From Burkholderiales bacterium PBB6 (GTDB lineage Bacteria > Pseudomonadota > Gammaproteobacteria > Burkholderiales > Burkholderiaceae_C): a stretch of DNA of 64,000 nucleotides. The position numbers and the translations under genes were made by a program. The notes beneath the pieces are model-generated. The model was not told the origin of the DNA. It did no database searches and was given only the letters and a program-made list of their open reading frames with translations. How positions within the stretch are numbered: position 1 is the stretch's first letter; each line of letters begins with the position of its first letter. Of the stretch, positions 3,896-20,836 are shown piece by piece. The stretch is from contig NKIH01000001.1 in the NCBI GenBank assembly GCA_002255925.1, forward strand, positions 744,001 through 808,000, given 5' to 3'.

Positions 3896-5581
3896 ATGAC
3901 CATCCGACAAGCTGCGGGCACGCGCCTGCTGCACTCAACACATCGACGTCGTCTGGGCGCCCTGGCGCTGGCTGCTTTCGCCGCTTGCGGTGTACACGCG
4001 GTGGAGATCGACACTGAGGTGCCCGACCTCAAGCTGCGCTGGGACAACACCGTCAAGTACAGCGCCGCGGCGCGGCTCAAGAAAGCGTCGCCGGGCCTGT
4101 CGCAAACGGCGTTCGGCCCCACCGGCATCGTGGGCGCCAACAACATCAACCAGGACGACGGCGACAACAACTTCGGCCGTGGCCTGGTGTCGAGCCGCCT
4201 CGACCTGCTGAGCGAGTTCGACGTGCGCTACCGCAACATCGGTGCGCGCGTCAGCGCCGCCGGCTGGTACGACCAGGTCTACAACCGCAGCAACGACAAC
4301 ACCACCTTCACGGCCAACCACACGCCGGGCAACGCCTTCACCAGCGAAACCCGTGAGCTGATGGGCCGCAAGCTGGAACTGCTCGACGCCTTTGTGTTCG
4401 GCAAGTTCGAGCTGGCCGACAAGCCCGTCACGGTGCGCCTGGGCCGCCACACCCTGCTGTGGGGCGAGAGCCTGTTCTTCGGCGCCAACGGCATTGCCGG
4501 TGGCCAGGCGCCGCTCGATTTGCCCAAGCTGCTGTCGGTGCCCAACGCGCAGTTCAAGGAGATTGCGCGCCCCACCGGCAAGTTGTCGGGCCAGGTGCAG
4601 CTGTCGTCCGATGTGTCGGTCGGCGCGTACGTGGGCTACGAGTGGGAAAAGACCCGGCTGATGCCAGTGGGTGCGTATCTCTCGACCAGCGATTCGCTGG
4701 GCGCGGGTGGTGAGCGCATCAACGCCGGCGCCACCGGCCAGTTCGTCAACTCGGGTGATCTGGATGCGCGCAACGGTGGCCAGTACGGCCTGCAGGTGCG
4801 CTGGCGTGTTGAAGACATCGATACCGACCTCGGCTTCTACGCCATTCGCTACAACGCCACCGGCCCGAGCAACATCTGGACGACGCTTTCTGGCGCGCCG
4901 CCGGCCCTCTCGGCCAGCAGCTACCGCTGGGCGTACCACGAAGGCATCCGCGCCTTCGGCGTCAGCTTCGCCAAGAGCGTGGGCGAGTGGGGCTTGGCCG
5001 GTGAGGCCTCGTACCGGCAGAACTCGCCGCTGGCCAGCTCGGGCCAATCGGTGATCCCGGCCATCGGCTTGGGCGTGGGCTTCGACAACAACAGCAACCC
5101 CGGTTATGCGGTGGGCGACACGGCACATGCGCAGTTCTCGTGGCTTGCCAGCCTCGGCCCCAACTGGCTCGCCAATGAGACGAGCTTCCTCGGCGAAGTG
5201 GCCTGGAACACCCGCGTCAAGGTGACCAAGAACGAAGCGATGCTGAACCCGAATGCACAAAAGTCGGCGACGGCGATGCGCTTGGTGTTCGCGCCGTCGT
5301 ACCGCCAGGTGCTGCCGGGTCTGGACCTCACGCCCAGCGTGGGTCTGGGTTATGGCTGGGGCAAGTCCTCGGCGGTGGGCCCGGCCTTTGCCGTCGACAA
5401 GGGCGGTGATCTGACCCTCGGCCTGGGGGCGGTGTACCTCGGCACCTGGAACGCCAACCTCAGTGTTGTGCATTACCTCGGCCGCGAAGCGCCCACGCTG
5501 GACAACGCCAACAACGCGCAATTCCTGCAGGCCATGAAGGACCGCGATTCCGTGACGCTGTCGCTGCGCACCACGTTCTGA
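3896..5581 (+). CDS. DUF1302-family outer-membrane protein
   Basis: A 561-residue exported protein. The ATG at 3896 follows an AAAGGAG site, and the open frame reading upstream of it is only an antisense shadow of the LysR gene. A signal peptide (RRLGALALAAFAACGVHA) precedes a long stretch of alternating polar/aromatic strands. The chain ends in SVTLSLRTTF, a C-terminal phenylalanine of the kind recognised by the BAM machinery, so an outer-membrane beta-barrel is likely. DUF1302 proteins commonly travel with DUF1329 proteins and RND pumps, as here. I infer that it is the outer-membrane channel or receptor for the substrate of this operon. Confidence 0.85.
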   Translation: MTIRQAAGTRLLHSTHRRRLGALALAAFAACGVHAVEIDTEVPDLKLRWDNTVKYSAAARLKKASPGLSQTAFGPTGIVGANNINQDDGDNNFGRGLVSSRLDLLSEFDVRYRNIGARVSAAGWYDQVYNRSNDNTTFTANHTPGNAFTSETRELMGRKLELLDAFVFGKFELADKPVTVRLGRHTLLWGESLFFGANGIAGGQAPLDLPKLLSVPNAQFKEIARPTGKLSGQVQLSSDVSVGAYVGYEWEKTRLMPVGAYLSTSDSLGAGGERINAGATGQFVNSGDLDARNGGQYGLQVRWRVEDIDTDLGFYAIRYNATGPSNIWTTLSGAPPALSASSYRWAYHEGIRAFGVSFAKSVGEWGLAGEASYRQNSPLASSGQSVIPAIGLGVGFDNNSNPGYAVGDTAHAQFSWLASLGPNWLANETSFLGEVAWNTRVKVTKNEAMLNPNAQKSATAMRLVFAPSYRQVLPGLDLTPSVGLGYGWGKSSAVGPAFAVDKGGDLTLGLGAVYLGTWNANLSVVHYLGREAPTLDNANNAQFLQAMKDRDSVTLSLRTTF

Positions 5582-5598
5582 TTTCCGGAGACTGATTT

Positions 5599-6945
5599 AT
5601 GCGAACCCTCTCTCACGGCGCGCTGCTGGCCGCTACCTTGCTGGCGGGCGTGGCCCACGCCGCCGTCACCGCTGACGAAGCGGCCAAGCTGAAATCCACC
5701 CTCACCCCGTTCGGTGCCGAGAAGGCCGGCAACGCTGACGGCAGCATCCCGGCCTGGACCGGTGGCTACACCACGCCCGTGGCCGGCTACAAAAGCGGTG
5801 GCCGCCGCGGCGACCCCTTCGCCAACGAAAAGCCGATCTACAGCATCACCGCCGACAACCTGGCTCAGCACGCATCGAAGCTGACCGAAGGCACGCAGGC
5901 GCTGCTCAAGAAGTACCCGAAGACCTTCCGCGTGGATGTCTACAAGACCCACCGCACGGCCGCTGCGCCGCAATGGGTCTACGACAACACATCCAGGAAC
6001 GCGCTTACCGCAACACTGAAGGGCGGCGTCGTCGGCAACGCCTTTGGGGGGATACCGTTCCCGATTCCCAAGACTGGGGAAGAGGTCATCGCCAACCACA
6101 CATTGCGATGGCGCGGCGAAGCCTGGCAGGCCGATTTTTCGGGCTATCTGACTACCGCGAATGGCCAGCGAGTCCTGACCGTACAGGCCATCGGCGACTT
6201 CCAGATGCCCTACTACGCCAACAACGAGCGGGACAAGTTCCAGGGCGACTACTGGATGACCCGCATCGTCAATTCGGGCCCACCCGTGAGAGCTGGGGAG
6301 GCGATCACAGGGCGTGAGAACGTGGACCCGTCAAAGGGCGCCGCCTGGGTGTACCTGACAGGACAACGCCGTGTCCGCAAGTTGCCCAAGGCCTGCTGTG
6401 ACACGCCCACCCCGGCCACCAGCGGGGTGATGAGCTTCGACGAAGTCGATGTGTTCACCGGGCGCACGGACAGCTTCGATTGGAAGCTCGTTGGCAAGCA
6501 GGAGATGCTGATTCCGTACAACGCCAACGGCTTGCACACGCCCAAGAACGTCGGTGAAGTGCTGCTGGCAAACCACCTCAACCCCGACCATGTGCGCTGG
6601 GAGCTGCACCGCGTCTGGGTGGTGGAGGCAACCGTGAAGCCAGGGGAGCGTCACCAGGCGCCGAAGAGCCGGTACTACGTCGATGAAGACACTTGGGTGG
6701 CTGTGTTGGGTGACCGCTGGGACGCCAATGGGCAGCTCTGGAAAACATTGTGGTCTCACCCAGTGGTCATGCCGGACCTGCCGGCAACCGTGCCCCAGCA
6801 GCAGTTCGGTTTCAATGACTTGATCTCGGGCGCTTGGTACGCCAACGGAGTGGTCAACGACAGCAACAAGCACTACCAGATCGTTCCGCGTCGCCCGGAC
6901 AGCTTCTTCACACCCGATGCCATGGCTGGCGAGGGCGTTCGCTGA
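5599..6945 (+). CDS. DUF1329-family periplasmic protein
   Basis: A 448-residue protein with a signal peptide (LSHGALLAATLLAGVAHA), then AVTADEAAKLKSTLTPFGAEK and the family's ADGSIPAWTGGYT segment. The DUF1329 fold is thought to resemble the LolA/LolB lipid-binding half-barrel, which would suit a periplasmic carrier of a hydrophobic compound. This is family knowledge and not proof. It lies 17 bases after the DUF1302 gene behind a GGAG site. Codon use is strongly G/C-ending up to about 5985 and visibly more relaxed after it, suggesting a recombination junction inside the gene. Confidence 0.88.
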   Translation: MRTLSHGALLAATLLAGVAHAAVTADEAAKLKSTLTPFGAEKAGNADGSIPAWTGGYTTPVAGYKSGGRRGDPFANEKPIYSITADNLAQHASKLTEGTQALLKKYPKTFRVDVYKTHRTAAAPQWVYDNTSRNALTATLKGGVVGNAFGGIPFPIPKTGEEVIANHTLRWRGEAWQADFSGYLTTANGQRVLTVQAIGDFQMPYYANNERDKFQGDYWMTRIVNSGPPVRAGEAITGRENVDPSKGAAWVYLTGQRRVRKLPKACCDTPTPATSGVMSFDEVDVFTGRTDSFDWKLVGKQEMLIPYNANGLHTPKNVGEVLLANHLNPDHVRWELHRVWVVEATVKPGERHQAPKSRYYVDEDTWVAVLGDRWDANGQLWKTLWSHPVVMPDLPATVPQQQFGFNDLISGAWYANGVVNDSNKHYQIVPRRPDSFFTPDAMAGEGVR

Positions 6946-6958
6946 GGCGACCAGAACC

Positions 6959-8068
6959 ATGCGACTTTCTCTTGTGATTGCTACCGCCTGGGCTGCGGCC
7001 TTGGTGGTGGCCCAGGGTGCCGCGGCCGCCACGGCCACGGCGGCCCCTGGGGCTGCCACGCCGGCAGCCCCGGTGGGTGATGCCCTGCTGCGCCCGGCCC
7101 TGGCCACGGCCGCGCCGGAACGCGCGGTGCTGCTCAGCGCCGCCCGGGCTGGCCAGCGCCTGGTGGCCGTGGGTGAGCGCGGCCTGGTGGCGCTGAGTGA
7201 CGACGAAGGGCGCACCTGGCGCCAGGCGCCGTGCCCGGTGAGCGTCAGCTTGACGATGGTGCGGTTTGCCGATGCACGCAACGGTGTGGCCGTGGGCCAT
7301 GCCGGCACCGTGCTGACCACCGCCGATGCCGGCGCCAGCTGGACGCTGCGGCTCGATGGCCGCCGCGTGGCCGCTGCCGCGCAGCAGGCGGCCACCACGC
7401 CGGCAGCCCAGCAAGAGGCCGCCCGCCTGGTGGCCGATGGCCCCGACAAGCCCTTCCTCGATGTGCTGCTGTGGGACGCCAAGCGCATGCTGGCCGTGGG
7501 CGCTTATGGCCTGGCCATGCACAGCGCCGACGGCGGTGTGACCTGGCAGCCGTGGATGGACCGCCTGCCCAATCCGAAGGGCCTGCACTGGTACGTGGCG
7601 CAGCGCGCCGGCGACACCTTGCTGCTGGCCGGTGAACAAGGCCTGCTGGCCACGTCAACCGACGGCGGCCGCAACTTCCGTGCGCTGGCTTCGCCGTATG
7701 CCGGCAGCTGGTTCACGGGGGACGTGAGCGCCTCGGGCGAATGGCTGCTGGCCGGTTTGCGCGGCAACGTCTGGCGGTCGATGGATGGTGGTGCGCAGTG
7801 GCAGGCCCTGGCCTCGCCCGTGCCCGCCAGCATCACCGCCGCAGTGCGCGGCAGCAACGGGCAATTGCTGCTCGCCAGCCAGGCCGGCCTGGTGCTGCAG
7901 GTGCAGGGCCAGGCGCTGGTGCCGATGCGCACGGCGCCACTGGCCTTGCCCTCGGCCCTGCTGCCGCTGCGCGACGGCCGCCTGTTGGCGCTGGGTGCCA
8001 CCGGCGTGACGCTGGTCTCGCCTGCTGAAGACAAGGCAAAAGCACAAGAAAAAGGAGAGCGCCCGTGA
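6959..8068 (+). CDS. YCF48/BNR-type beta-propeller protein, exported
   Basis: 369 residues from the ATG at 6959, which opens a signal peptide (MRLSLVIATAWAAALVVAQG). Repeated units of the form ALSDDEGRTWR, LTTADAGASWT, MHSADGGVTWQ and ATSTDGGRNFR are BNR/YCF48 blades, so it should fold as a periplasmic propeller. Genes like this sit beside MMPL pumps and DUF1329 proteins in several catabolic loci. A scaffold or assembly role for the transporter is my inference. Its stop codon overlaps the GTG start of the pump gene. Confidence 0.82.
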   Translation: MRLSLVIATAWAAALVVAQGAAAATATAAPGAATPAAPVGDALLRPALATAAPERAVLLSAARAGQRLVAVGERGLVALSDDEGRTWRQAPCPVSVSLTMVRFADARNGVAVGHAGTVLTTADAGASWTLRLDGRRVAAAAQQAATTPAAQQEAARLVADGPDKPFLDVLLWDAKRMLAVGAYGLAMHSADGGVTWQPWMDRLPNPKGLHWYVAQRAGDTLLLAGEQGLLATSTDGGRNFRALASPYAGSWFTGDVSASGEWLLAGLRGNVWRSMDGGAQWQALASPVPASITAAVRGSNGQLLLASQAGLVLQVQGQALVPMRTAPLALPSALLPLRDGRLLALGATGVTLVSPAEDKAKAQEKGERP

Positions 8069-10452
8069 ACGCGCCGGCATTTGATACCCGCTCAGGCTCA
8101 CTGATTGAGCGAGCCCTGTTCAACCACCGCCGTGTGGTGCTGCTGCTGTGCGCGCTGGTCACGCTGCTGCTGGGCTGGCAAGCCACGCACCTGCAACTGC
8201 ATGCCAGCTTCGAAAAGACCATTCCCACCCGCCACCCGTACATCCAGAACTTTCTGGCCAACCAGCATGAGCTGAGCGGCCTGGGCAATGCCGTGCGCAT
8301 CGCCGTGGCCCAGCCCAAGGGCAGCATCTACCAGGCCGCGTACCTGGACACGCTGCGCCGCTTGTCTGACGAAGTCTTCCTGATGCCCGGCGTGGACCGC
8401 ACGCGGATGAAGTCGCTGTGGACACCCACCACCCGCTGGGTTGGCGTCACCGAAGACGGGCTCGAAGGCGGCCCGGTGATCCCGGACGGCTTCGACGGCT
8501 CACCGGAAAAGCTGCAGGCGCTGGCCAGCAACGTGGCCCGCTCGGGTGAGATCGGCCAGCTGGTGGCGCGTGATGCGCAGTCCAGCGTGTTGTTCGTGCC
8601 GCTGCTGGCCAAGGGCGCCGATGGCCAGGCCATCGACTACGCCGAGCTGTCGACGCGGCTGGAGGCCCTGCGCACCAAGTACGAGGCGGAAGGCGTGCAG
8701 CTGCACATCACCGGCTTCGCCAAGATCATCGGCGACCTGATCGAAGGCGTGCGCGCCGTGCTGGTGTTCTTCGCGCTGGCCGTGGCCATCGCCACCGCGA
8801 TGGTGTTCTGGTACACGCGCTGCCTGCGCTCCACCGCGCTGGTGGTGCTGGCCTCGCTGATCGCGGTGGTGTGGCAGCTTGGCCTGCTGCCGGTGCTTGG
8901 CTTTGCGCTCGACCCCTACTCCATCCTCGTGCCCTTCCTCGTGTTCGCCATCGGCATGAGCCACGGTGCGCAGAAGATGAACGGCATCATGCAGGACGTG
9001 GGCCGCGGCGTGGACAAGCTGGTCGCTGCGCGCTTCACCTTCCGCCGCCTGTTCCTGGCCGGCCTCACCGCCTTGCTGGCCGACGCGGTGGGCTTTGCGG
9101 TGCTGCTGGTCATCGATATCCAGGTGATCCGCGAGCTGGCGATTGCCGCCTCCATCGGTGTCGGCGTGCTGATCTTCACCAACCTGATCCTGCTGCCCAT
9201 CGGCCTGAGCTACACCGGTGTCAGTGCCTCGGCCGCAGCACGCAGCCTGCGTGACGAGCAGGCCGATGCGGCCGGTGCCGCCAAGCACCCGCTGTGGGCT
9301 TTCCTTGATCGCTTCACGCAGCGCCGCTGGGCCACCGCGGCTGTGCTCGCCGGCCTGGTGATGGGCGTGGGCGGTTATGCCGCCAGCACCCAGTTGAAGA
9401 TCGGTGACCTGGACCCCGGCGCGCCCGAGCTGCGGGCGGACAGCCGCTACAACCGCGACGTGGCCTTCATGACCTCGGCCTACGGCGCGGGCAGTGACGT
9501 GCTGGCGGTGATGGTGAAAACGCCCGACGGCCAGTGCTCGAACTATGCCGCGCTGAACAAGATCGACGCGCTGGAGTGGCAGCTGCGCCAGCTGGACGGT
9601 GTGGAGAGCACCAACACGCTGTCGCTGCTGAACCGCCGCGTGCTGTCGGGCCTGAACGAGGGCAACCCGCGCTGGTACGAGTTCCTGCCCAACCAGGACA
9701 TGCTCAACACCGTCACCGCCGGTGCGCCGCGCGGGCTCTACAACGACGCCTGCAACCTGCTCACGCTGTACGTGTACCTGCGTGACCACAAGGCCGACAC
9801 CCTGGCCCGCGTGGTGCAGCACGTCGAGGCATTCGCCAGCGTCAACAACAGCCCCGAGGCCACCTTCATGCTGGCCGCAGGCAGCGCCGGCATCGAGGCC
9901 GCCACCAACATCGTCGTGCGTGACGCCTGGCACACCATGCTCGCCATGGTCTACGGCGCGGTGGTGCTGCTGTGCTTCATCACCTTCCGCTCGTGGCGGG
10001 CCGTGGTGGTGGCCGTGCTGCCGCTGGTGCTGACCTCCTTCCTGGCCGAAGCCTTGATGGTGGCGCTGGGCATGGGCGTGAAGGTGGCCACGCTGCCAGT
10101 CATCGCCCTCGGTGTGGGCATCGGCGTTGATTACGCGCTCTACATCCTGTCCGTCACCCTGGCCCAGCTGCGCGAAGGCAAGAGCCTGTCGGAGAGCTAT
10201 TACCGCGCGCTGCTGTTCACCGGCAAGGTGGTGATGCTCACCGGCGTCACGCTGGCCGTGGGCGTCATCACCTGGGTTGCCAGCCCCATCAAGTTCCAGG
10301 CCGACATGGGCTTGCTGCTGGCCTTCATGTTCGTCTGGAACATGCTCGGCGCACTGGTCCTGGTGCCGGCGCTCGCGCATTTCCTGCTCAAACCCGCCGT
10401 GGTGGCACGCGAACCAGAAGCCGCTTCGGTCGGTGCGGAGGTGGCGGCATGA
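8065..10452 (+). CDS. MMPL/RND-family inner-membrane transporter
   Basis: A 795-residue RND-superfamily permease starting with GTG at 8065 behind an AAAGGAG site. It has the duplicated RND plan: one N-terminal helix, a large periplasmic domain, then a helical block (FFALAVAIATAMVFWY onward), repeated in the second half (VYGAVVLLCFITFRSW onward). The membrane motifs VFAIGMSHGAQKMNGI and ALGVGIGVDYALYILS mark the paired helix-4 regions. This branch (hydrophobe/amphiphile and sterol-sensing type) moves lipids or hydrophobic compounds. Given the DUF1302/DUF1329/YCF48 partners it probably handles the pathway substrate. It overlaps the next gene by ATGA. Confidence 0.9.
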   Translation: MNAPAFDTRSGSLIERALFNHRRVVLLLCALVTLLLGWQATHLQLHASFEKTIPTRHPYIQNFLANQHELSGLGNAVRIAVAQPKGSIYQAAYLDTLRRLSDEVFLMPGVDRTRMKSLWTPTTRWVGVTEDGLEGGPVIPDGFDGSPEKLQALASNVARSGEIGQLVARDAQSSVLFVPLLAKGADGQAIDYAELSTRLEALRTKYEAEGVQLHITGFAKIIGDLIEGVRAVLVFFALAVAIATAMVFWYTRCLRSTALVVLASLIAVVWQLGLLPVLGFALDPYSILVPFLVFAIGMSHGAQKMNGIMQDVGRGVDKLVAARFTFRRLFLAGLTALLADAVGFAVLLVIDIQVIRELAIAASIGVGVLIFTNLILLPIGLSYTGVSASAAARSLRDEQADAAGAAKHPLWAFLDRFTQRRWATAAVLAGLVMGVGGYAASTQLKIGDLDPGAPELRADSRYNRDVAFMTSAYGAGSDVLAVMVKTPDGQCSNYAALNKIDALEWQLRQLDGVESTNTLSLLNRRVLSGLNEGNPRWYEFLPNQDMLNTVTAGAPRGLYNDACNLLTLYVYLRDHKADTLARVVQHVEAFASVNNSPEATFMLAAGSAGIEAATNIVVRDAWHTMLAMVYGAVVLLCFITFRSWRAVVVAVLPLVLTSFLAEALMVALGMGVKVATLPVIALGVGIGVDYALYILSVTLAQLREGKSLSESYYRALLFTGKVVMLTGVTLAVGVITWVASPIKFQADMGLLLAFMFVWNMLGALVLVPALAHFLLKPAVVAREPEAASVGAEVAA

Positions 10453-11405
10453 CCACGCTCACCACACGGGCGGTACGCATTGCACGCAAGGCCGACCAAG
10501 CGCCGGGCATCTGCTCATTCGAGCTGGTCGACCCCGACGGCGGCGCCCTGCCCAGCTTCTCCGCCGGCGCCCACATCGATGTTCACCTTCCAGGTGGGTT
10601 GGTGCGTCAGTACTCGCTTTGCAACAACCCGGTGGAGACTCACCGCTACCTGATCGCCGTCTTGCGCGATCCGGCTTCACGCGGCGGATCCGCTGGGATG
10701 CACGATCTGGTGGAAGACCAGTGCATCCGGATCAGCGATCCGAAGAATCACTTCGAACTCGCTGCCCACGCCAAGCGCAGCCTGTTGCTGGCCGGAGGCA
10801 TCGGTGTGACGCCGATCCTGTGCATGGCCGAGTGGCTCGCCAGCGAAGGCGCTGAGTTCGAGATGCACTATTGCACTCGCTCGAGAGCGCGCACGGCTTT
10901 CGTCGAGCGCCTTGCTGCCGGGTCGTTCGCATCGCGAGTGCACTTGCACCACGACGATGAACAGCCCCTCGATGCCGCGAAGTTGCTCGCGGCACCCGAG
11001 CCGGGAACGCACCTGTATGTGTGCGGCCCGACCCGCTTCATGGATTGGGTGCTCGAAACGGCACGCGCCGCGGGCTGGCCCGAGGACCGGCTGCACCGCG
11101 AGTACTTTGCCGCGGCGCCGATCGACACCCGTGACGATGGCAGCTTCGAGGTCCAGATTGCATCGACCGGCATCGTGATCGGCATCGCTGCTGACCAGAC
11201 CGTTGTCGCTGCGCTGGCCGCGAGAGGGATCGAGGTGCAAACGTCTTGCGAACAGGGCGTCTGCGGCACCTGCCTGACCCGCGTGCTGGACGGTGTCCCT
11301 GATCACCGCGACATGTACCTCACACCGGATGAGCAGGCCAAGGGTGACCAGTTCACCCCGTGCTGTTCACGCGCCAAGACGGCGCGCCTCGTACTTGACC
11401 TTTGA
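10449..11405 (+). CDS. Phthalate-dioxygenase-reductase/VanB-type oxidoreductase
   Basis: A 318-residue electron-transfer protein that should pass electrons from NADH to the Rieske oxygenase encoded next. The order is a flavin-binding barrel (HLPGGLVRQYSLCNNP), an NAD-binding domain (LLLAGGIGVTPILCMAEW) and a C-terminal plant-type [2Fe-2S] domain with Cys267, Cys272, Cys275 and Cys305 or Cys306 (CEQGVCGTC...PCC). This domain order defines the PDR/VanB class IA reductases. Codon use here is less G/C-biased than in the flanking genes. Confidence 0.93.
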   Translation: MTTLTTRAVRIARKADQAPGICSFELVDPDGGALPSFSAGAHIDVHLPGGLVRQYSLCNNPVETHRYLIAVLRDPASRGGSAGMHDLVEDQCIRISDPKNHFELAAHAKRSLLLAGGIGVTPILCMAEWLASEGAEFEMHYCTRSRARTAFVERLAAGSFASRVHLHHDDEQPLDAAKLLAAPEPGTHLYVCGPTRFMDWVLETARAAGWPEDRLHREYFAAAPIDTRDDGSFEVQIASTGIVIGIAADQTVVAALAARGIEVQTSCEQGVCGTCLTRVLDGVPDHRDMYLTPDEQAKGDQFTPCCSRAKTARLVLDL

Positions 11406-11415
11406 AGGAGAACAC

Positions 11416-12468: not shown

Positions 12469-12472
12469 CCCC

Positions 12473-12592
12473 GTGCGCACACGCCTGCTGGACCAGGGCG
12501 ATCGCGTCGCCTGTTTTGCCCTGATTGTCGCCGTGCTTGCCGCGGCCGCTCTTGCGATCGACTGGCTTGCGACGATGGTCTGGCCGCGCTGA
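12473..12592 (+). CDS. 39-residue single-span membrane peptide
   Basis: A short frame starting with GTG four bases after the oxygenase stop codon. It encodes VRTRLLDQGDRVACFALIVA followed by VLAAAALAIDWLATMVWPR. A charged N-terminus, one hydrophobic helix of about 22 residues and a short tail make it a plausible inner-membrane micropeptide. It fills most of the gap between the oxygenase and hydrolase genes and shares their relaxed codon use. It lacks an obvious ribosome site other than coupling to the upstream stop, so it could be fortuitous or a remnant. Confidence 0.45.
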   Translation: MRTRLLDQGDRVACFALIVAVLAAAALAIDWLATMVWPR

Positions 12593-12622
12593 ATCCTCTC
12601 GACGACCTCTATCTGGAACCCC

Positions 12623-13783
12623 ATGTTCAAGTACTTTCCCACCAACTACGTCTGGAATCTCTCGGTCGATCTGGCCATTGAAATGGGCGCGCGCATCGGC
12701 GAGATCGAAGCCATGTGCGCCCCGCTGCAGGAGGCTGCCAAGGCGCCTGACGCCGCCGGCACGAAAGCCTTCCGCGAGACCTGGGTGCGCATGGCCGACC
12801 AGCTGTGCGAACTGGCTGATGAAGACCTGGCGCGTGGCCGCCAGCGCTCAGCCGGTGAGAAGCTGCGCCGCGCGTCCAGCTACCTGATCACGGCCGAGCG
12901 CCTGCAGGCGCACGACGCACCGGGCCGCCTGGCGATGTACCGGCGTGAGCTGGCGCTGTTCCAGGAAGGCTCGCGCCTGCTGGGCGATCCGGTGCAGCGC
13001 GTCGAGATTCCGTACGAAGGCCGGTACCTGTCGGCCCTGTACCTGCCCGCGCAAGGCCTGCGGCCGGGTGAGCGTGCGCCGGTGCTGGTGCAGCTCAACG
13101 GCCTGGATTCAACCAAGGAAATGAAGCACCTGGTGGGCCTGCCAGGCTGGCTGGCGCAGCGCGGCGTGTCGTCGCTGGTGGTGGACCAACCGGGCACCGG
13201 CGAAGCCCTGCGCCTGCAAGGCCTGACCGCCCGCTTCGACACCGAACACTGGGCCAGCCGCGTGGTGGACTGGCTGGAAACGCGCGACGACGTTGATGCC
13301 AAGCGCATCGGCTGCGAAGGCGTGTCGCTGGGCGGCTATTACTGCCCGCGCGCCGTGGCCATGGAGCCGCGTTTTGCCGCCGGCGTGTGCTGGGGCGCGA
13401 ACCACGACTGGCGCGACGTGCAGAAGCGCCGCCTGGAAAAGGAGGGCGATTTCCCTGTGCCGCATTACTGGGCCCACGTCTGCTGGGTCTGGGGCGCCAA
13501 GGACGTGGACGACTTCATGCGCATTGCCGAAGACGTGCACCTGGACGGCGTGATCGAAAAGATCCGCGTGCCCTTCCTGGTCACCCACGGCGAGAAGGAC
13601 TCGCAGATCCCGCTCAAGTGGGCGCACCGCACCTACGAGCAACTGGTGAACAGCCCGAAGCGCGAACTCAAGGTCTTCACCGACCGCGAAGGCGGCGCGC
13701 AGCACGCCAGCTTCGACAACTCGATCAACGCCGGTCAGTACATCGCCGACTGGGTGGCCGAGACGCTGGGCGGCCGGACGTAA
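12623..13783 (+). CDS. Alpha/beta hydrolase, C-C hydrolase/esterase type
   Basis: A 386-residue serine hydrolase with an alpha-helical N-terminal extension of about 125 residues before the alpha/beta core. The nucleophile elbow is GVSLGG with Ser235. An acid is available in THGEKDSQIP (about 320-330), and the catalytic His is probably His361 in GGAQHASFDNS. The long N-terminal lid resembles the family of 2,6-dihydroxypseudooxynicotine hydrolase and related polyketide or C-C hydrolases. In this operon it may split a side chain or a ring-fission product, which is inference from context. Confidence 0.85.
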   Translation: MFKYFPTNYVWNLSVDLAIEMGARIGEIEAMCAPLQEAAKAPDAAGTKAFRETWVRMADQLCELADEDLARGRQRSAGEKLRRASSYLITAERLQAHDAPGRLAMYRRELALFQEGSRLLGDPVQRVEIPYEGRYLSALYLPAQGLRPGERAPVLVQLNGLDSTKEMKHLVGLPGWLAQRGVSSLVVDQPGTGEALRLQGLTARFDTEHWASRVVDWLETRDDVDAKRIGCEGVSLGGYYCPRAVAMEPRFAAGVCWGANHDWRDVQKRRLEKEGDFPVPHYWAHVCWVWGAKDVDDFMRIAEDVHLDGVIEKIRVPFLVTHGEKDSQIPLKWAHRTYEQLVNSPKRELKVFTDREGGAQHASFDNSINAGQYIADWVAETLGGRT

Positions 13784-13858
13784 CCCCCGCTGCAGCGGCT
13801 GCTGGCTGTGACGGCGGCCCCTCCAACAACGATTCGAATTCTGAGGAAGAAACCCACC

Positions 13859-14791
13859 ATGAACATCATTGGACTCGACGCCCTCGTCTTCGGCGTGGAC
13901 GACCTGGCCGGCTGCCGGCAATACCTGATCGACTACGGCCTGAGCGACGCGGGCGATGGCCGCTTCGAAGCGCTGGACGGCACCGCGGTGCTCATCCGCG
14001 CCAAGGACGACCCCAGCCTGCCGGCTGATCTGGGCACCGCCAGCCTGCTGCGCGAAACCGTGTACGGCGTGGCCGACGTGGCCACGCTCGACGCGATCGA
14101 GGCCGAGCTGCAACGCGACCGCACCGTCACCCGCGAAGGCGGTGTGCTGCGCAGCGTGGATGACCTCGGCTTTGCGCTGGCCTTCCAGGTCACGGTGCGT
14201 CGCCCGCTGTCGATGCCCGCTGAAACCGTGAACGCCCCCGGTGCCGTGTCGCAGCGCGGCGTCAACGCCCTGGGCCTGCCGCCAGAGATGCCGGCGCTGC
14301 CGCGTTCGCTCTCGCACGTCGTGTACTTCGTGCCAGACACGGCCAAGGCCGAGGCCTTCTATGCGCGCCTGGGCTTTGTCTGCACCGACCGGTTCACCGG
14401 CGTCGGTCCCTTCCTGCGTCCGGCCGGCACCACCGAACACCACGCGTTGTTCATGATCCAGACGCCGCCGTTCATGAAGGGCTGCGAGCACTTCACCTTC
14501 CACATGGGCGGCCCCACCGAGGTGCTGCTGGCCGGCAGCCGCTTCGTGGAGAAGGGCTACCAGAGCTTCTGGGGCCCGGGCCGCCACCGCTTCGGCAGCA
14601 ACTGGTTCTGGTACTTCAACTCACCGCTGGGTTGCCATGTGGAATACGACGCCGACATGGACCTGCACGACGACAGCTGGACCGCGCGCGAGGTGCCGAT
14701 GAGCGCTGACGCCTCACAGCTGTTCCTGTTCCAGAACCGCGAGAAGTGGGCGCCCTCGGGCCCGCCTCCCGGTGGCAAGCCGGCGCACTGA
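13859..14791 (+). CDS. Two-domain VOC-family protein, extradiol-dioxygenase-like
   Basis: 310 residues from the ATG at 13859, preceded by a GAGGAAG site. Two vicinal-oxygen-chelate modules are visible. The N-terminal one (residues 1-130) is degenerate. The C-terminal one keeps a His-His-Glu set (LSHVVYFVPD, FTFHMGG, CHVEYDAD) suited to Fe(II) or Mn(II) binding as in extradiol ring-cleavage enzymes. A ring-opening dioxygenase is the natural reading in this pathway, but VOC proteins also include isomerases and lyases, so the reaction is not certain. Confidence 0.82.
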   Translation: MNIIGLDALVFGVDDLAGCRQYLIDYGLSDAGDGRFEALDGTAVLIRAKDDPSLPADLGTASLLRETVYGVADVATLDAIEAELQRDRTVTREGGVLRSVDDLGFALAFQVTVRRPLSMPAETVNAPGAVSQRGVNALGLPPEMPALPRSLSHVVYFVPDTAKAEAFYARLGFVCTDRFTGVGPFLRPAGTTEHHALFMIQTPPFMKGCEHFTFHMGGPTEVLLAGSRFVEKGYQSFWGPGRHRFGSNWFWYFNSPLGCHVEYDADMDLHDDSWTAREVPMSADASQLFLFQNREKWAPSGPPPGGKPAH

Positions 14792-14801
14792 GGACTGAGC
14801 C

Positions 14802-15152
14802 ATGCGCCTGTGCCACGTGCATGACATTCCTGACGGCGGTGCCCGCGGTTTTGACACCGCAGGCGCCGGTCAGGACACGCTGTTCGTGGTGCGCCGTGGC
14901 GAGCAGCTGCTGGCCTACGTCAACAGCTGCCCGCACCACGACACGCCGCTGGCCTGGCGCCGCGATGCCTACCTCAATGCCGCGGGTGATCGCATCGTGT
15001 GCGCGGCCCACGGCGCGCTGTTCGAGATCGACACCGGCCGCTGCACGCTCGGCCCTTGCCTGGGCGATGCACTGACCCCGCTGGCGCTGCGCACAGACCC
15101 TGACGGCGAGGTCCACCTCGCCCCCCCACAAGATTCGGAGACAACCCCATGA
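14802..15152 (+). CDS. Rieske-type [2Fe-2S] ferredoxin
   Basis: A 116-residue soluble Rieske protein with Cys43-X-His45 (CPHHDTPL) and Cys67-X2-His70 (CAAHGALF), a complete cluster site. Proteins of this size serve as electron carriers to Rieske oxygenases or occasionally other mono-oxygenases. No second Rieske oxygenase is adjacent, so it either supplies the VanA-like enzyme or an enzyme elsewhere. It overlaps the FAD monooxygenase gene by ATGA. Confidence 0.9.
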   Translation: MRLCHVHDIPDGGARGFDTAGAGQDTLFVVRRGEQLLAYVNSCPHHDTPLAWRRDAYLNAAGDRIVCAAHGALFEIDTGRCTLGPCLGDALTPLALRTDPDGEVHLAPPQDSETTP

Positions 15153-16279
15153 ACCTCTCAAACCAACGCATCCTCATCATCGGTGGCGGCTTCTCCGGCA
15201 TGTCCGCGGCCATCCAGCTGCGCAAGCTCGGCGCCAGTGTCGACCTCGTTGAGATCGACGCGGGCTGGCGCAGCTACGGCGCCGGCATCAGCTTGGGTGG
15301 CGCCACGCTGCGCGCCTTCCGCACGCTCGGCATCCTCGACGCCTTCATGGCCGAGGGCAGCGCCACCGACGGCGTGCACCTGCACCTGCCGCATGGCCCG
15401 AAGGTCGCCGAGATCCCGACGCCGCGCATCGCTGGCGCCGACGTGCCCGGCGGCGGCGCCATCATGCGGCCGGTGCTGGCCCGCATCCTGGCCGATGCCA
15501 CACGCGCCTCGGGCACGCACGTGCGCCTGGGCTGCACCTTCACCGCCATCGAGCAAGACGCGGACGGTGTGACCGTCACCTTCAACGACGGCGACAGCCA
15601 GCGCTATGACCTGGTGATTGGCGCCGACGGCCTGTACTCGAAGGTCCGCGAAACCGTGTTCCCGGACGCGCCGAAGCCGCGCTACAGCGGCCAGGCCGTG
15701 TGGCGCGCCGTGCTGCCGCGCCTGCCTGAGGTCGAGACCGCCACCATGTGGATCGGCCCGCAGGTGAAGCCGGGCGTGAACCCGGTGTCGGCCTCTGAGA
15801 TGTACCTGTTCGTCACCGAGCCCAAGCCGGTCAACGAGCACGTCGACCCCGCCACCTTCGCCGACCGCCTGCGCGATCTGCTGACCGATTTCCCGGCGCC
15901 GGTGCTGCGCCAGATCCGCGAACAGATCACGCCGGAGTCACAGATCAACTACCGTCCGCTGGAAGGCTTGTTGATGCCGCGCCCGTGGGCCAACGGCCGC
16001 GTGGTGATGATCGGCGACACCGTGCATGCCACCACGCCGCACCTGGCCTCGGGCGCCTGCATCGGCGTTGAAGATGCGCTGGTGCTGGCCGAAGAACTCG
16101 GCCGCGGTGATGACCTGCCCGCCGCGCTCGCTGCGTTCGAGGACCGTCGCTGGGAGCGCTGCCGGATGGTGGTGGAAAACTCCACCCGCCTGGGTGAGAT
16201 CGAGATCAGCGGGGGCGACAAGGAAGAGCACGGCCGCATCATGCGCGACTCCCTGATGGCCCTGTCCCAGCCCATCTGA
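15149..16279 (+). CDS. FAD-dependent aromatic-ring monooxygenase
   Basis: A 376-residue class A flavoprotein hydroxylase. The FAD site is read from ILIIGGGFSGMSAAIQL at residues 7-23, the DG motif from IGADGLYSKVRE and the second FAD motif from MIGDTVHATTPHLASGACIG. This set defines salicylate or para-hydroxybenzoate hydroxylase relatives, which use NAD(P)H and oxygen to hydroxylate, sometimes decarboxylate, an aromatic ring. Here it probably prepares the ring for cleavage by the VOC protein encoded two genes upstream. Confidence 0.9.
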   Translation: MNLSNQRILIIGGGFSGMSAAIQLRKLGASVDLVEIDAGWRSYGAGISLGGATLRAFRTLGILDAFMAEGSATDGVHLHLPHGPKVAEIPTPRIAGADVPGGGAIMRPVLARILADATRASGTHVRLGCTFTAIEQDADGVTVTFNDGDSQRYDLVIGADGLYSKVRETVFPDAPKPRYSGQAVWRAVLPRLPEVETATMWIGPQVKPGVNPVSASEMYLFVTEPKPVNEHVDPATFADRLRDLLTDFPAPVLRQIREQITPESQINYRPLEGLLMPRPWANGRVVMIGDTVHATTPHLASGACIGVEDALVLAEELGRGDDLPAALAAFEDRRWERCRMVVENSTRLGEIEISGGDKEEHGRIMRDSLMALSQPI

Positions 16280-16293
16280 CCGGAGCACACCGC

Positions 16294-17448
16294 ATGATCA
16301 AGACCGACAGCCGGACCGGGCGCCTGGCCCTGGCCGTGGCGCATTGCGCCGGCATGGTGGATCTGGTGGCGCTGCCCGTGTGGGTGGGCACACTGATCGC
16401 CCACTACGCGTTCGATCCGCAACAGGCGGGCGCGCTGGTGACCTTGTTCCTCGTGGGCGCGGTGCTGGCCAGTGCGGTGTTCGCGCCGCGCTTCCACCGC
16501 CTGCGTGGCCGGCCGGCGGCAGCGCTGGGCTTTGGTGTGGCGGCGGCGGCTTTCTTCGCGGCCTCCACCACCACGGCGTTCAACCAACTGGCGGTGCTGC
16601 ATGCGGTGGCGGGTTTCAGCGCCGGCACGGGCTTGAGCTTCACCCACGGCACGATCGGCCGCAGCGCCAATCCGCACCGTCTGTTCGCCATCGTCGGCAT
16701 GGCGCTCGGGGCGTTTGCGGTGTTGTTCCTCGGCGGCACGCCGCAGCTGGTGGCGGCCCTGGGCGGCCCGGTGCTGTTCGTCGTGTTCGGCGGCGTGATG
16801 GCGCTGGCCGCGGTCACGTCAACGCTGGCCTTCCCGGTGCCCGATGAAGAGTCGCAAGCCTCGCAGTCGTTCCGCGCGTCGGGGCAGCGCCTGCCGGGTG
16901 TCATCTGGTACGGCATCGCCGCGATCAGCTGCATGGCCGTGGCGCAGGCCATGGTGTTCAGTTTCGTCGAGCGCGTCGGCGTGGACCGCGGCTTTGGCAC
17001 GGAGCGTGTCACGGCGGTGCTCATCGCCATCGGCTTGGTGAACCTGTTCCCGGCCGCCATCGCCGCGCTGCTGCAGCGCCGCGTGGACGCCCGCACCGTG
17101 GTGCTGGCAGGCCCGGCCGTGCAGGGCGTGCTGGCGCTGACCATTGCGGTCAGCAGCGGCTTCGAGGCCTACGCGCTGGCCACCGCCGTGTTCGTGGTGC
17201 CCATGCTGTTCACCCACACCTTTGCCTTCGGCCTGCTGGCCAAGCTCGACGTGACGGGCCGCGCCACCGCCGCCACCCCCGCCATGCTGATGATCGGCTC
17301 GGCCATCGGGCCGGTGCTGGGCGGCACGCTCGTCAAGGCCTTCGGCTACGGCGGGCTGGGCGCTGCGGCCGTGCTGATCGACCTCATCGCCATCGTTCTC
17401 TTTGCCCGTTTGATGCCGACCACCCGGTCGGCCGAGGCCACCCCATGA
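16294..17448 (+). CDS. MFS transporter
   Basis: A 384-residue integral membrane protein with about twelve predicted helices arranged in two halves, split by a polar stretch at residues 185-200 (VPDEESQASQSFRASGQRLP). This is the size and plan of small major-facilitator permeases. Substrate residues cannot be read off. Its place between the monooxygenase and cyclase genes suggests uptake of the aromatic substrate or export of an intermediate. It overlaps the cyclase start by ATGA. Confidence 0.85.
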   Translation: MIKTDSRTGRLALAVAHCAGMVDLVALPVWVGTLIAHYAFDPQQAGALVTLFLVGAVLASAVFAPRFHRLRGRPAAALGFGVAAAAFFAASTTTAFNQLAVLHAVAGFSAGTGLSFTHGTIGRSANPHRLFAIVGMALGAFAVLFLGGTPQLVAALGGPVLFVVFGGVMALAAVTSTLAFPVPDEESQASQSFRASGQRLPGVIWYGIAAISCMAVAQAMVFSFVERVGVDRGFGTERVTAVLIAIGLVNLFPAAIAALLQRRVDARTVVLAGPAVQGVLALTIAVSSGFEAYALATAVFVVPMLFTHTFAFGLLAKLDVTGRATAATPAMLMIGSAIGPVLGGTLVKAFGYGGLGAAAVLIDLIAIVLFARLMPTTRSAEATP

Positions 17449-18266
17449 ACTCGAACCTGCCCACCCGCCCGAAGCGCCGTTTCGTGGATCTGTCGATCTA
17501 CCTTGAAAACGATGTGCTCTCTGACCCGCCACCACTGGCGCCGAAGATCACCTACCAGCAGCACGCCGACACGCTGCCGGAGTTCATGGCTATGCTGCCC
17601 GGCACCACGGCGGAGGACTACCCGGACGGCGAGGCCGCAGCCGCCGAGTGGGTGACGCTGACGACCCACAACGGCACCCACCTGGATGCGCCCTGGCATT
17701 TCCATTCCACGCAGGACGCCAAGAACGGCGGCAGCCGGCCCAGCATCACGATTGACGAGGTGCCGCTGGAGTGGTGCTTCCAGTCGGGTGTGAAGCTCGA
17801 CTTCCGCCACTTCCCCGACGGCTATGTGGCCACCGCGGCTGATGTGGAGGCTGAGCTGGCGCGCATCGGCCATGAGCTGCAGCCGCTGGACATCGTGGTG
17901 GTGAACACCCGCGCCGGCAGCCGCTACGGCCACAAGGATTACCTGGGCGCCGGCTGCGGCATGGGCTACGAGGCCACCATGTACCTGCTCGAGCGCGGCG
18001 TGCGGTTGACCGGCACCGACGCCTGGAGCTGGGACGCGCCGTTTTCATACACCGCGAAGAAGGTGGCCGAGACCGGCAATAAGGCGCTGATCTGGGAAGG
18101 CCACAAGGCCGGCCGCGACATCGGCTACTGCCACCTCGAGAAGCTGCACAACCTCGAAGCCCTGCCAGCGCATGGCTTCACCATCAGCTGCTTCCCGCAC
18201 AAAATCCGCGGCGCATCTGCCGGCTGGACCCGTGCCGTCGCCATCTTTGAAGGAGAGGCCGCATGA
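17445..18266 (+). CDS. Cyclase/kynurenine-formamidase-family metal hydrolase
   Basis: A 273-residue member of the metal-dependent cyclase family (kynurenine formamidase relatives). The signature HNGTHLDAPWHF near residues 69-80 supplies metal ligands, and GHKDYLGAGCGM and an EGHKAGRDIGYCHLEKLHN stretch follow. Family members hydrolyse amides or lactones or cyclise polyketides. In a ring-degradation operon a lactone or enol-lactone hydrolase role is reasonable but unproved. It overlaps the cupin gene by ATGA. Confidence 0.85.
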   Translation: MNSNLPTRPKRRFVDLSIYLENDVLSDPPPLAPKITYQQHADTLPEFMAMLPGTTAEDYPDGEAAAAEWVTLTTHNGTHLDAPWHFHSTQDAKNGGSRPSITIDEVPLEWCFQSGVKLDFRHFPDGYVATAADVEAELARIGHELQPLDIVVVNTRAGSRYGHKDYLGAGCGMGYEATMYLLERGVRLTGTDAWSWDAPFSYTAKKVAETGNKALIWEGHKAGRDIGYCHLEKLHNLEALPAHGFTISCFPHKIRGASAGWTRAVAIFEGEAA

Positions 18267-18877
18267 GCGCGCCAGTCAATCACTTTCCCGCCATCCACCG
18301 CGTGGTGACGGGCCACGATGCTGAAGGTCAGGCCATCGTGGCCAGCTCAGGCCCGTTGCCCAGCGTGGTCGAGATTGCCGCGATTCCCGGCACGGTGTTC
18401 CATGAGGTGTGGAGCACCACCGAAACGCCCGCCCCGCTGAACAACGGCGCCGACCCGACGCTGGGCCCGTTGACGCTGCCACCGCCACCCCGCGGCACGC
18501 GCGTGCGCTTCGTCGACATTCCGCCCGACACCGACGAGTTCCTCGCCCACGGTGCGGCCCGCATGAAGCAGGCCTTCTCCCAGATCGGCGACGAAGCGGC
18601 CTCCACCGTGCAGGCGCACTCGCCCCATCCGCTGATGCACCGCACCGAGTCGATCGACTACGGCGTGGTCATCGCCGGCGAGCTGACGCTGGTGCTCGAC
18701 ACCGGTGACGTGCAATTGCGCGCCGGCAGCGTGGTGGTGCAACGTGGCACCAACCACGCCTGGGCCAACCGTTCGGGCCAGCCCTGCCGCATGCTGTTCG
18801 TGCTGGTGGACGGGCAGTTTGACCCGGTCATCACGGCCACCTTCGCCCACCCCACCGATGTCCCGGTCGCACCATGA
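18263..18877 (+). CDS. Cupin-domain protein
   Basis: A 204-residue protein with a single C-terminal cupin barrel. A segment reading ELTLVLDTGDVQLRAGSVVV and then QRGTNHAWANRSGQPCRMLF corresponds to the two cupin motifs. The second motif keeps a histidine (TNHAW), while the first has no clear H-X-H pair, so metal binding and dioxygenase activity are doubtful. A role as isomerase, decarboxylase accessory or regulator is equally possible. It overlaps the FAH-family gene by ATGA. Confidence 0.8.
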   Translation: MSAPVNHFPAIHRVVTGHDAEGQAIVASSGPLPSVVEIAAIPGTVFHEVWSTTETPAPLNNGADPTLGPLTLPPPPRGTRVRFVDIPPDTDEFLAHGAARMKQAFSQIGDEAASTVQAHSPHPLMHRTESIDYGVVIAGELTLVLDTGDVQLRAGSVVVQRGTNHAWANRSGQPCRMLFVLVDGQFDPVITATFAHPTDVPVAP

Positions 18878-19857
18878 AATTCGCATCCCTTCGCAACGGC
18901 AGCCTGGACGGTCGCCTGGTTTTGGTGTCGGCCGATCTGAGCCGTGCCGTGGCCGTGCCGCAGATCGCCCCCAGCCTCATCGACGCCCTGCAGCGCTGGG
19001 ACGAGGTGCTGCCGCAACTGCAGCAGGTGGCTGCCGCACTGGAAGCCGGCCAGGCCGCTGAGGCCTTCGACTTTGACCCGCAAGCCTGTGGTGCGCCGCT
19101 GCCGCGCAGCCCGCAGTGGCTCGACGGCTCGGCCTTCCTGAACCACGGGCACCTGATGGAGCAGGCCTTCAACACGCCGCCGATTCCGCAGTTCGACACC
19201 ACGCCCGTGATGTACCAGGGCGCGAGCGACGACTTTCTCGGCCCGCACGCCGACGTGCCGCTGCCCAGCGAAGCCGACGGCATCGACTTCGAAGGCGAGT
19301 TCGGTGTGGTGTGCGGCCCGGTGCCGATGGGCGTGTCCGCGGACGCGGCGCTTGGCTGCATCCGCCTGATCGTGCAGGTCAATGACTGGAGCCTGCGTGC
19401 CCTGGGCCCGCATGAGATGAAAACCGGCTTCGGCTTCCTGCAGGCCAAGCCGTCATCGTCGTTCGCGCCGGTGGCCGTGACGCCCGACGAGCTGGGCAGC
19501 GCCTGGCAGGGCGGCCGGGTGCAGATGCGGCTGCATGTGCAATGGAACGGCGAGCGTTTTGGCGAGCCGCATGGTGGCGAGATGAACTTCCACTTCGGCC
19601 AGCTGGTGGCGCATGCCGCGCGCACGCGGCGGCTGGCGGCAGGCTGCATCGTCGGCTCGGGCACGGTGTCGAACGTGGCGCGCAGCGCGGGCTCCGCCTG
19701 CATCGCCGAGCGCCGCGTGATCGAGAAGATCGACCTCGGCGAGATCCGCACGCCCTTCATGCGCTTCGGTGACGAGGTGCGCATGCAGGCGCGTTTCGAC
19801 GACGGGCGCGACGGCCCGTTTGGCGTCATCCGCCAGCGCGTGCTGGCCGCAGGCTGA
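18874..19857 (+). CDS. Fumarylacetoacetate-hydrolase-family protein
   Basis: A 327-residue FAH-superfamily protein. The metal site is visible as DFEGEFGVV (Glu-X-Glu) and QVNDWSLR (Asp), with MKTGFGFLQAKPSSSFAP downstream as in fumarylacetoacetases, which hydrolyse the C-C bond of 3-ketoacids. It could release the final short acids of the pathway. The C-terminal part (GCIVGSGTVSN) is also typical. Strong family assignment, unknown substrate. Confidence 0.9.
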   Translation: MKFASLRNGSLDGRLVLVSADLSRAVAVPQIAPSLIDALQRWDEVLPQLQQVAAALEAGQAAEAFDFDPQACGAPLPRSPQWLDGSAFLNHGHLMEQAFNTPPIPQFDTTPVMYQGASDDFLGPHADVPLPSEADGIDFEGEFGVVCGPVPMGVSADAALGCIRLIVQVNDWSLRALGPHEMKTGFGFLQAKPSSSFAPVAVTPDELGSAWQGGRVQMRLHVQWNGERFGEPHGGEMNFHFGQLVAHAARTRRLAAGCIVGSGTVSNVARSAGSACIAERRVIEKIDLGEIRTPFMRFGDEVRMQARFDDGRDGPFGVIRQRVLAAG

Positions 19858-19867
19858 GGTTGGCGCC

Positions 19868-20836
19868 ATGAATGTGCTGATCACCGGCGCGGCCGGTTTT
19901 GTGGGCTGCGCGTTGGCGCGCCGATTGCAGGCAGAGGCCAGCCTCGGCGGCCGCCCGCTCCAACGTCTGATCCTGACCGACCTCGGCTTTGGCGACTCGC
20001 CAGCGCCGGGCGGCATCACCCAGCACCTGGCCGGCGACTTGACGGATGCCGCGTGGCTGGATGCTGCCTTGACGACCGCACTGGGCGCCGAGCCCATCGA
20101 CGTGATCTTCCATCTGGCCAGCGTGCCGGGTGGCATGGCCGAGGCGAACCCGGCACTGGCCCGGCGTGTGAACCTGGATGCGACGCAGTGGCTGCTGGCG
20201 CGTGGCCAGCAACAGGTGGAGGCCGGTGGGCCAGCGCCGGTGTTCGTGTTCGCCAGCTCCATCGCGGTGTTTGGTGCGCTGCCCGCGGAAGTCAACGATG
20301 ACACGGCGCTGCGTCCGTTGTTGACCTACGGCGCGCACAAGGTGGTGGGCGAGGTGCTGGTCGATGACTTCAGCCGCCGTGGCTGGGTGGATGGCCGCTC
20401 GCTGCGCCTGCCCGGCGTGCTCGCCCGTCCGCCGCAGCGCACGGGGCAGCTGTCGGCCTTCCTGAGCGACATGATCCGCGAGGTGGCCGCGGGCCGCAGC
20501 GTGATCTGCCCGATGTCGCCGCAGGCCACGACCTGGGCCTCCTCCATCACCAACGTGGTGGAAAACCTGCTGCATGCCGCCGTGGTGGACACCGCGGGCT
20601 GGGGCCAGTCACGCGCCATCACCTTGCCGACCGTGCGGTACTCGATGAGCGAACTGGTGGATGCCCTGGTGGCGCAGCACGGGCCGGCTGCGCGTAGCCT
20701 GATCAGCCATGCACCGCAGCCGCACATCGAGGCGCTGTTCGGCCGCTTCCCTCTGCTGAGCACACCACGAGCACTCGCGGCGGGCTTTCAAAGTGATGCC
20801 AGTCTGGCGGCGCTGGTGACGTCGGCGCTGGATTGA
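19868..20836 (+). CDS. NAD-dependent epimerase/dehydratase, DenD-like
   Basis: 322 residues from the ATG at 19868. An extended short-chain dehydrogenase with the Rossmann motif TGAAGFVG at the N-terminus and the catalytic Tyr-X3-Lys in YGAHK, and FASSIAVFG supplying the serine. The overall sequence recalls D-erythronate dehydrogenase (DenD). As the last gene of the 17-kb plus-strand run it may oxidise a hydroxyacid product, or be an unrelated passenger. Confidence 0.82.
   Translation: MNVLITGAAGFVGCALARRLQAEASLGGRPLQRLILTDLGFGDSPAPGGITQHLAGDLTDAAWLDAALTTALGAEPIDVIFHLASVPGGMAEANPALARRVNLDATQWLLARGQQQVEAGGPAPVFVFASSIAVFGALPAEVNDDTALRPLLTYGAHKVVGEVLVDDFSRRGWVDGRSLRLPGVLARPPQRTGQLSAFLSDMIREVAAGRSVICPMSPQATTWASSITNVVENLLHAAVVDTAGWGQSRAITLPTVRYSMSELVDALVAQHGPAARSLISHAPQPHIEALFGRFPLLSTPRALAAGFQSDASLAALVTSALD

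Follow-up and report, generated by a model that had tools for sequence, protein, structure and literature searches.

The 64,000-nucleotide stretch of DNA analysed here (the window), which lies on contig 24 of the 4.41 Mb assembly of Burkholderiales bacterium PBB6 (a member of a family that also includes Piscinibacter defluvii and Hydrogenophaga flava), carries a run of plus-strand genes that is very probably an fde-type operon for the catabolism of flavonoids, controlled by a divergent LysR regulator that resembles FdeR. The features of this locus are listed in Table 1. From bp 3896 to 20836 the genes are open frames without internal stops that overlap or are spaced by at most 75 bases (the 75-base gap is ahead of the VOC gene, taking its start at 13859), and third-position G+C is 0.78-0.91 across the operon frames. 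The initial annotation counted seventeen frames in this run; family or conservation evidence supports 15 genes, and one doubtful 39-codon GTG frame brings the count to 16. This frame was rejected as a real gene: it is probably not one because it has no convincing relative among related loci (best tblastn E-value: 0.68, not significant) and a 58 aa extended form has zero Pfam or NCBIfam matches. The tight spacing previously claimed holds with the frame included, but once it is dropped a gap of 154 bases (12468 to 12623) opens directly after the Rieske oxygenase gene. The protein families named earlier were confirmed by Pfam and NCBIfam profile searches, and two genes absent from that account, the divergent LysR gene and a separate small Rieske ferredoxin inside the core, can be added.

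Table 1. Features of the predicted fde-type locus of the window and its upstream flank
Feature	Position (bp)	Strand	Evidence and remarks
LysR regulator, NodD/FdeR-like	2825-3751	-	Pfam HTH_1 and LysR_substrate; divergent from the operon
Candidate operator-like box, GATTGGAAACAACCCATTTTTC	3811-3832	+	Intergenic region between the LysR gene and the operon
DUF1302 protein, AmeA type	3896-5581	+	PF06980 (E-value: 7.5e-127); outer-membrane by analogy
DUF1329 protein, AmeB type	5599-6945	+	PF07044 (E-value: 1.1e-124); periplasmic by analogy
YCF48/BNR-like protein, AmeC type	6917-8068	+	PF14870 (E-value: 2.9e-14)
MMPL/HAE3-like RND transporter, AmeD type	8065-10452	+	PF03176; TIGR00921 (HAE3) 157.8 bits, under the cut-off of 351.9
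VanB-like reductase	10449-11405	+	PF00111 (Fer2), DmmA-like_N, NAD_binding_1; C-terminal plant-type ferredoxin domain; motifs RQYS and C-x4-C-x2-C...C
Rieske oxygenase, VanA_C type	11416-12468	+	PF00355, PF19112; iron-ligand motif DNILDLSHIEYLH seen by eye in the translation
39-codon GTG frame, probably not a gene	12473-12592	+	One hydrophobic stretch
Alpha/beta hydrolase (ABH), FdeB position	12623-13783	+	2,6-dihydroxypseudooxynicotine hydrolase-like; best solved match 2jbw (E-value: 1.3e-22)
VOC extradiol dioxygenase, FdeC position	13859-14791	+	PF00903; longer frame from 13808; candidate metal ligands H153, H211 or H215 and E262 invariant in 5 of 5 aligned rows
Small Rieske ferredoxin (FDX), FdeD position	14802-15152	+	PF00355; cluster-binding motif
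Group A FAD monooxygenase (FMO), FdeE type, predicted flavonoid 8-hydroxylase	15149-16279	+	PF01494; PRK06847 540.7 bits (cut-off 372); GD motif GDTVHATTPHLASG seen by eye in the translation
MFS transporter, FdeF position	16294-17448	+	PF07690
Cyclase-type hydrolase, FdeG position	17445-18266	+	PF04199; 91% identity to L054, 93% to L056
Cupin, FdeH position	18263-18877	+	PF07883
FAH-type hydrolase, FdeI position	18874-19857	+	PF01557, PF18288
NAD-dependent SDR (epimerase-type), D-erythronate-dehydrogenase-like, FdeJ position	19868-20836	+	PF01370; NF043036 235.6 bits, under the cut-off of 325
Sensor kinase and response regulator pair	398-2811	+	Just upstream of the LysR gene

According to the initial annotation, the operon matched no pathway that could be named. 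When its gene order was compared with that of related loci, it was found to match an already characterised type of pathway, represented by the fde cluster in Herbaspirillum and by its Variovorax relative, ifc. The nine-gene order ABH, VOC, FDX, FAD hydroxylase (FMO), MFS, cyclase, cupin, FAH and SDR is found in Herbaspirillum frisingense (L054), H. aquaticum (L056) and locus L033 of genome G178 (L and G numbers are our handles for loci and genomes). The window ABH is 83% and 82% identical to those of L054 and L056, and its VOC protein is 84% identical to that of L033 and 81-84% identical to Herbaspirillum-type rows. In L054 and L056 an FdeA-like protein (88% and 86% identical to the L033 copy, which is of the Phenol_MetA_deg family) and a LysR gene stand at the head of the core, with the FdeA-like and LysR genes mutually divergent. 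Nine core genes plus the FdeA-like protein give ten ORFs, as many as are reported for fde (PMC9422121), and FdeA is itself described as 43% identical to a protein with a phenol-degradation protein as its best match (PMC8552027). The positions of the window VOC, FMO and FDX genes match those of FdeC (Hsero_1005, a dioxygenase), FdeE (Hsero_1007, an FAD monooxygenase reported as an 8-hydroxylase; PMC10755750) and FdeD, the Rieske carrier of the FdeED hydroxylase (PMC8552027), which supports the fde identification. The identification is made on the combined agreement of gene content and order, the clade of the hydroxylase, the regulator and the operator-like box. Because four transporter genes stand in place of an FdeA match, the window operon is a variant of the fde operon, not the fde operon itself; the core is of a known type, and the exchanged transporter and the inserted Rieske pair are what set it apart from fde. 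The first proposal, that a hydrophobic aromatic compound is broken down here through activation of the ring, extradiol cleavage and a hydrolytic step, with transport parts in the envelope, is supported.

The window LysR protein is 56% identical to the LysR adjoining the core in L033, and 57% and 56% identical to those of L054 and L056, respectively. FdeR is reported to be a LysR regulator whose gene shares an intergenic region with fdeA (PMC10799723; the label "NodD-like" comes from a reference title within that article). The sequence AANCCATTT occurs in 21 of 27 regions between a LysR gene and an FdeA or DUF1302 gene (shuffles: mean 0.2, maximum 2 of 27), being absent from the other 6; as it was picked after viewing the same 27 regions, many of them from related genomes, the shuffle figure overstates the case. 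This box is common to FdeA-led and transporter-led operons. The NodD-type ATC-N9-GAT and ATTC-Nx-GAAT patterns were not widely shared among these intergenic regions.

A scan of named genomes with the VOC protein returned at least 591 pattern matches, of which at least 356 encode a VOC relative, so that with the fde identification a widespread cluster gains a substrate class. The best 80 of these VOC-encoding loci were analysed; some end inside the cluster, making the gene counts lower bounds. ABH was present in 77 loci, FDX in 77, FMO in 78, the cyclase in 60, FAH in 59, SDR in 45, the cupin in 43 and MFS in 42. ABH, VOC, FDX and FMO are consecutive in 54 of the 80, all nine core genes are present in 28 and the order of the window is kept in 20 (L054 and L056 among them), a recurrence that is more than chance. 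Among 300 genomes of the order, a VOC search was positive in 21 at an E-value of 1e-20 (own genome included), with at least 69% identity in four only (own, G178, G255 and G058) and 31-41% in the others. Around the close relatives the core is nearly whole or present in large part (L033, L035 and L036) or partial (L034); it does not recur around the distant relatives examined (L037-L040). Of 16 genomes from the genus, 5 (the own one among them) encode a VOC relative at an E-value of 1e-60, and the other four relatives are 61-69% identical to the window protein, as compared with 82-84% for those of Acidovorax, Curvibacter CHRR-16 and Piscinibacter. A search of 100 genomes of the family with the ABH protein was positive in 6 at an E-value of 1e-100; the matches, that of the own genome included, fall at seven places, with G466 contributing two. 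This patchy occurrence, together with closer VOC relatives outside the genus, suggests horizontal gain of the operon or its patchy retention.

Diverged second copies of the core (VOC 55% and FMO 47-48% identity) were observed approximately 40 kb from the first copy in G058 (L036, with L035 as the first copy) and directly beside the first copy in L076. In L060, from a record titled Pantoea sp., the cluster's VOC and cyclase proteins are 80% and 92% identical to those of the window, and the tree of VOC proteins places this VOC protein with rows of Comamonadaceae and Sphaerotilaceae, which could reflect transfer, contamination or a wrong name.

When 40 FMO rows (38 of 84 loci sampled, plus L036) were placed in a tree, the window FMO fell in a 15-row clade (support 99/99) with the three Herbaspirillum-type rows (L033, L054 and L056). 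Nine Pseudomonas and Marinobacterium rows (38-42% identity) form a separate clade (100/100) that may be IfcA-like, and five rows at 47-57% identity (L036, one of L076, L073, L084 and L144) lie outside both. This placement bears on the idea that the same operon serves another polyphenol with a resorcinol-type ring (isoflavone, chromone, stilbene, xanthone or coumarin), flavanones being side substrates. Such a role is in keeping with the use of similar enzymes in isoflavone degradation by ifc (PMC11069340) and with the wide and varied distribution of related clusters; but the window hydroxylase clusters with Herbaspirillum enzymes, away from the distant Pseudomonas clade, and FdeE is reported to act on flavanones, flavones, isoflavones and flavonols alike (PMC11303751). 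We therefore regard it as unlikely and prefer the flavonoid operon of fde type.

Several points weigh against that identification. The comparison with fde was made through L033, L054 and L056 and not with the sequence of H. seropedicae SmR1 itself, the fde letters B and F-J were assigned by gene position, no FdeA match was found in the window, and occurrence within the genus is sparse, as noted above. IfcA of Variovorax is reported to be specific to isoflavone aglycones (PMC11069340), which indicates that a homologous FAD enzyme can switch substrate class. In favour of the identification, the same article reports that Ifc enzymes 8-hydroxylate daidzein, that the IfcB product has the spectrum of intermediate X2 and that the ifc cluster has a DHPON-hydrolase-like neighbour gene. 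Against it, disruption of this ABH gene in Variovorax left daidzein degradation unaffected and 8-hydroxydaidzein was left over after the IfcB reaction (PMC11069340), so that roles at and after ring cleavage are uncertain.

The first four genes of the operon resemble AmeABCD, which is proposed to be an exporter in the monoterpene metabolism of Castellaniella (PMC6394551). Of the uptake function originally assigned to these genes, the transport parts stand, but an import direction does not follow from this characterised relative. Across 84 loci of the core, three or four of the Ame genes occur without FdeA in 41, FdeA occurs without any Ame gene in 15, one or two Ame genes occur without FdeA in 10, and 18 have neither; no locus carries both. 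With the ten partial loci omitted, this exclusivity gives a Fisher p of 5.7e-7 (1.5e-5 if they are counted as without Ame and 7e-8 if counted as with it), relatedness being ignored in each case. On the VOC tree (84 proteins, 56 labelled rows) the Ame/FdeA label switches at least six times (bootstrap 6-7), and the strongly supported branches alone force three switches. Ame and FdeA modules thus seem to have been exchanged for each other repeatedly, and this suggests that their roles overlap. If FdeA is an outer-membrane channel, as its family would imply, a role in passing the substrate is favoured over defence alone, which speaks against export. In 26 of the 80 named loci, as in the window, no more than 3 kb separates ABH from an RND gene upstream of it. 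In the open-access literature searched, an AmeABCD-type transporter tied to flavonoid catabolism was not found, and a role is suggested here for DUF1302/DUF1329/YCF48/RND modules beside aromatic pathways. The service of AmeABCD in monoterpene metabolism (PMC6394551) could also be taken to favour a pathway of a new kind for a steroid- or terpenoid-like compound, a substrate raised in the initial annotation. We rejected this reading as highly improbable: the core is fde by content, order, hydroxylase clade and regulator, and the monoterpene-like module (at least three of its four genes) accompanies that core in 41 of the 84 loci.

Between the transporter genes and ABH, the window encodes a Rieske oxygenase and its adjoining reductase. 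The nearest solved relatives of the oxygenase are GdmA (7QWT) and DdmC, equal at an E-value of ~3e-64 (7QWT is named as GdmA through PMC12445004, the guaiacol reaction being taken from a reference title therein). In a tree, the window oxygenase belongs to a nine-row clade of its own (100/99), apart from GdmA, DdmC and VanA-like rows. Five of its rows are from fde-type loci (the window, Piscinibacter L045 and L048, Pseudomonas resinovorans L095, and L144), one (L143) lies inside an Ame module without an fde core and three (L145-L147) adjoin an acyl-CoA ligase gene. A second clade of five rows (100/99) is also situated between transporter and ABH (L046, L048, L051, L059 and L061). The fde-slot label changes four times on the Rieske tree, compared with a shuffled mean of 8.8 (1 of 500 shuffles as low), with presence in fde loci partly by construction, since most of these rows were collected through the VOC gene.

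A search of the family with the Rieske protein, which gives the fairer count since the VOC gene played no part in it, was positive in 22 of 399 genomes (own included) at an E-value of 1e-60, while a stricter search (1e-70) of 399 genomes of the order found only the own genome. In the family, identity reaches 44% or more at 12 places, of which six are fde-type (own, L045, L046, L048 (two) and L144) and six are outside fde loci (L143, L145, L146, L147, L148 and L150); the idea that this Rieske group is exclusive to flavonoid clusters was accordingly dropped. A Rieske enzyme lies between transporter and ABH in 6 of the 80 named loci. A reductase gene adjoins a Rieske gene within an fde-type locus only in L095 among these 80, and also in L144; outside fde-type loci the pair is found in L145 and L146. 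A different FAD monooxygenase occupies the same slot in L046 (bp 7566-8792, beside the Rieske gene) and L052 (bp 6684-7901), and this position seems to accommodate accessory oxygenases. In L143 (bp 6649-14209), the Rieske oxygenase gene is located between the DUF1329 and YCF48 genes, and the VOC match in the vicinity is weak (27%). A housekeeping vanillate demethylase was considered for the window enzyme and rejected: three weaker relatives (31-37% identity) are encoded elsewhere in the genome, and the two of these that were scanned are both VanA_C proteins.

The simplest reading is that the Rieske pair O-demethylates a methoxy flavonoid or phenylpropanoid. We predict this by analogy, because both solved relatives are O-demethylases, because the acyl-CoA ligase neighbourhood of the cousins would suit methoxylated phenylpropanoids and because IfcA is reported to be inactive on 4',7-dimethoxyisoflavone (PMC11069340). 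A methoxylated aromatic substrate, suggested at the outset for the whole operon, stays a live idea for this pair. The pair might instead hydroxylate or desaturate a flavonoid ring or act on a different phenylpropanoid within the same operon, a proposal that we rate as somewhat short of an even chance. Rieske oxygenases are described as catalysing many reactions (PMC12445004), the window enzyme stands in its own clade and three close relatives adjoin an acyl-CoA ligase gene and not fde genes, whereas the demethylase activity of GdmA and DdmC speaks for O-demethylation. Bacterial flavonoid O-demethylation by a Rieske enzyme was not found described in the open-access literature searched, and the window pair is named here as a specific candidate for it.

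Gene identity, order and kinship, the conservation of regulator and box and the exclusivity of transporter and FdeA were observed directly, and these would fit the following scheme. A flavonoid would pass the envelope, with the AmeABCD-like complex acting either as a carrier or as a bleed valve against toxic excess. The Rieske oxygenase and reductase would prepare some substrates, most likely by oxidative O-demethylation of a methoxy flavonoid. The FdeE-type enzyme and the small Rieske protein would then hydroxylate carbon 8 of the A ring, producing a 7,8-catechol, and the VOC enzyme would open this ring; in relatives, 8-hydroxylation and VOC involvement in A-ring cleavage have been demonstrated by others. 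ABH, cyclase, cupin, FAH and SDR would degrade the fragment, leaving the B ring as a phenylpropanoid or benzoate; the order of these late steps, like the role of the Rieske pair and the direction of transport, is what we infer. The B-ring product could be cleaved by protocatechuate 4,5-dioxygenase, whose LigA and LigB proteins are encoded in the own genome; protocatechuate 3,4-dioxygenase was rejected, one partial PF00775 match being present. We further suggest, as a tentative and rather doubtful extension, that fde is a modular chassis in which an AmeABCD-type RND complex replaces FdeA as an energised flavonoid carrier and the Rieske group, acquired by at least two lineages at the position ahead of the core, demethylates methoxylated flavonoids for the hydroxylase. 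If so, demethylation would let the hydroxylase act, as the IfcA hydroxylase reportedly refuses a 7-methoxy isoflavone.

Four known systems can be compared with the window operon. With the naringenin-degrading fde cluster of H. seropedicae SmR1 it shares genes B-J in order, including the FdeE-type hydroxylase, VOC dioxygenase and Rieske ferredoxin, as well as the divergent NodD-like LysR gene and conserved box; it differs in having AmeABCD-type genes in place of fdeA and an additional Rieske oxygenase and reductase. With the ifc cluster of Variovorax sp. V35, as described in the article on it, it shares an FAD 8-hydroxylase, a VOC protein, a DHPON-hydrolase-like ABH and a cupin, but IfcA is reported to be only 36.3% identical to FdeE (PMC11069340) and the window FMO belongs to the Herbaspirillum clade, not to the 38-42% Pseudomonas/Marinobacterium clade. 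The Rieske oxygenase matches the O-demethylases GdmA and DdmC over its full length, with both the Rieske and VanA_C domains and an adjoining reductase gene in the window, but stands in a separate clade. Finally, the transporter genes are likened by family and order to AmeABCD of Castellaniella defragrans (DUF1302, DUF1329, COG4447/YCF48-like and HAE3 RND in the same order), although the module is found in a monoterpene cluster in C. defragrans and in a flavonoid cluster in the window.

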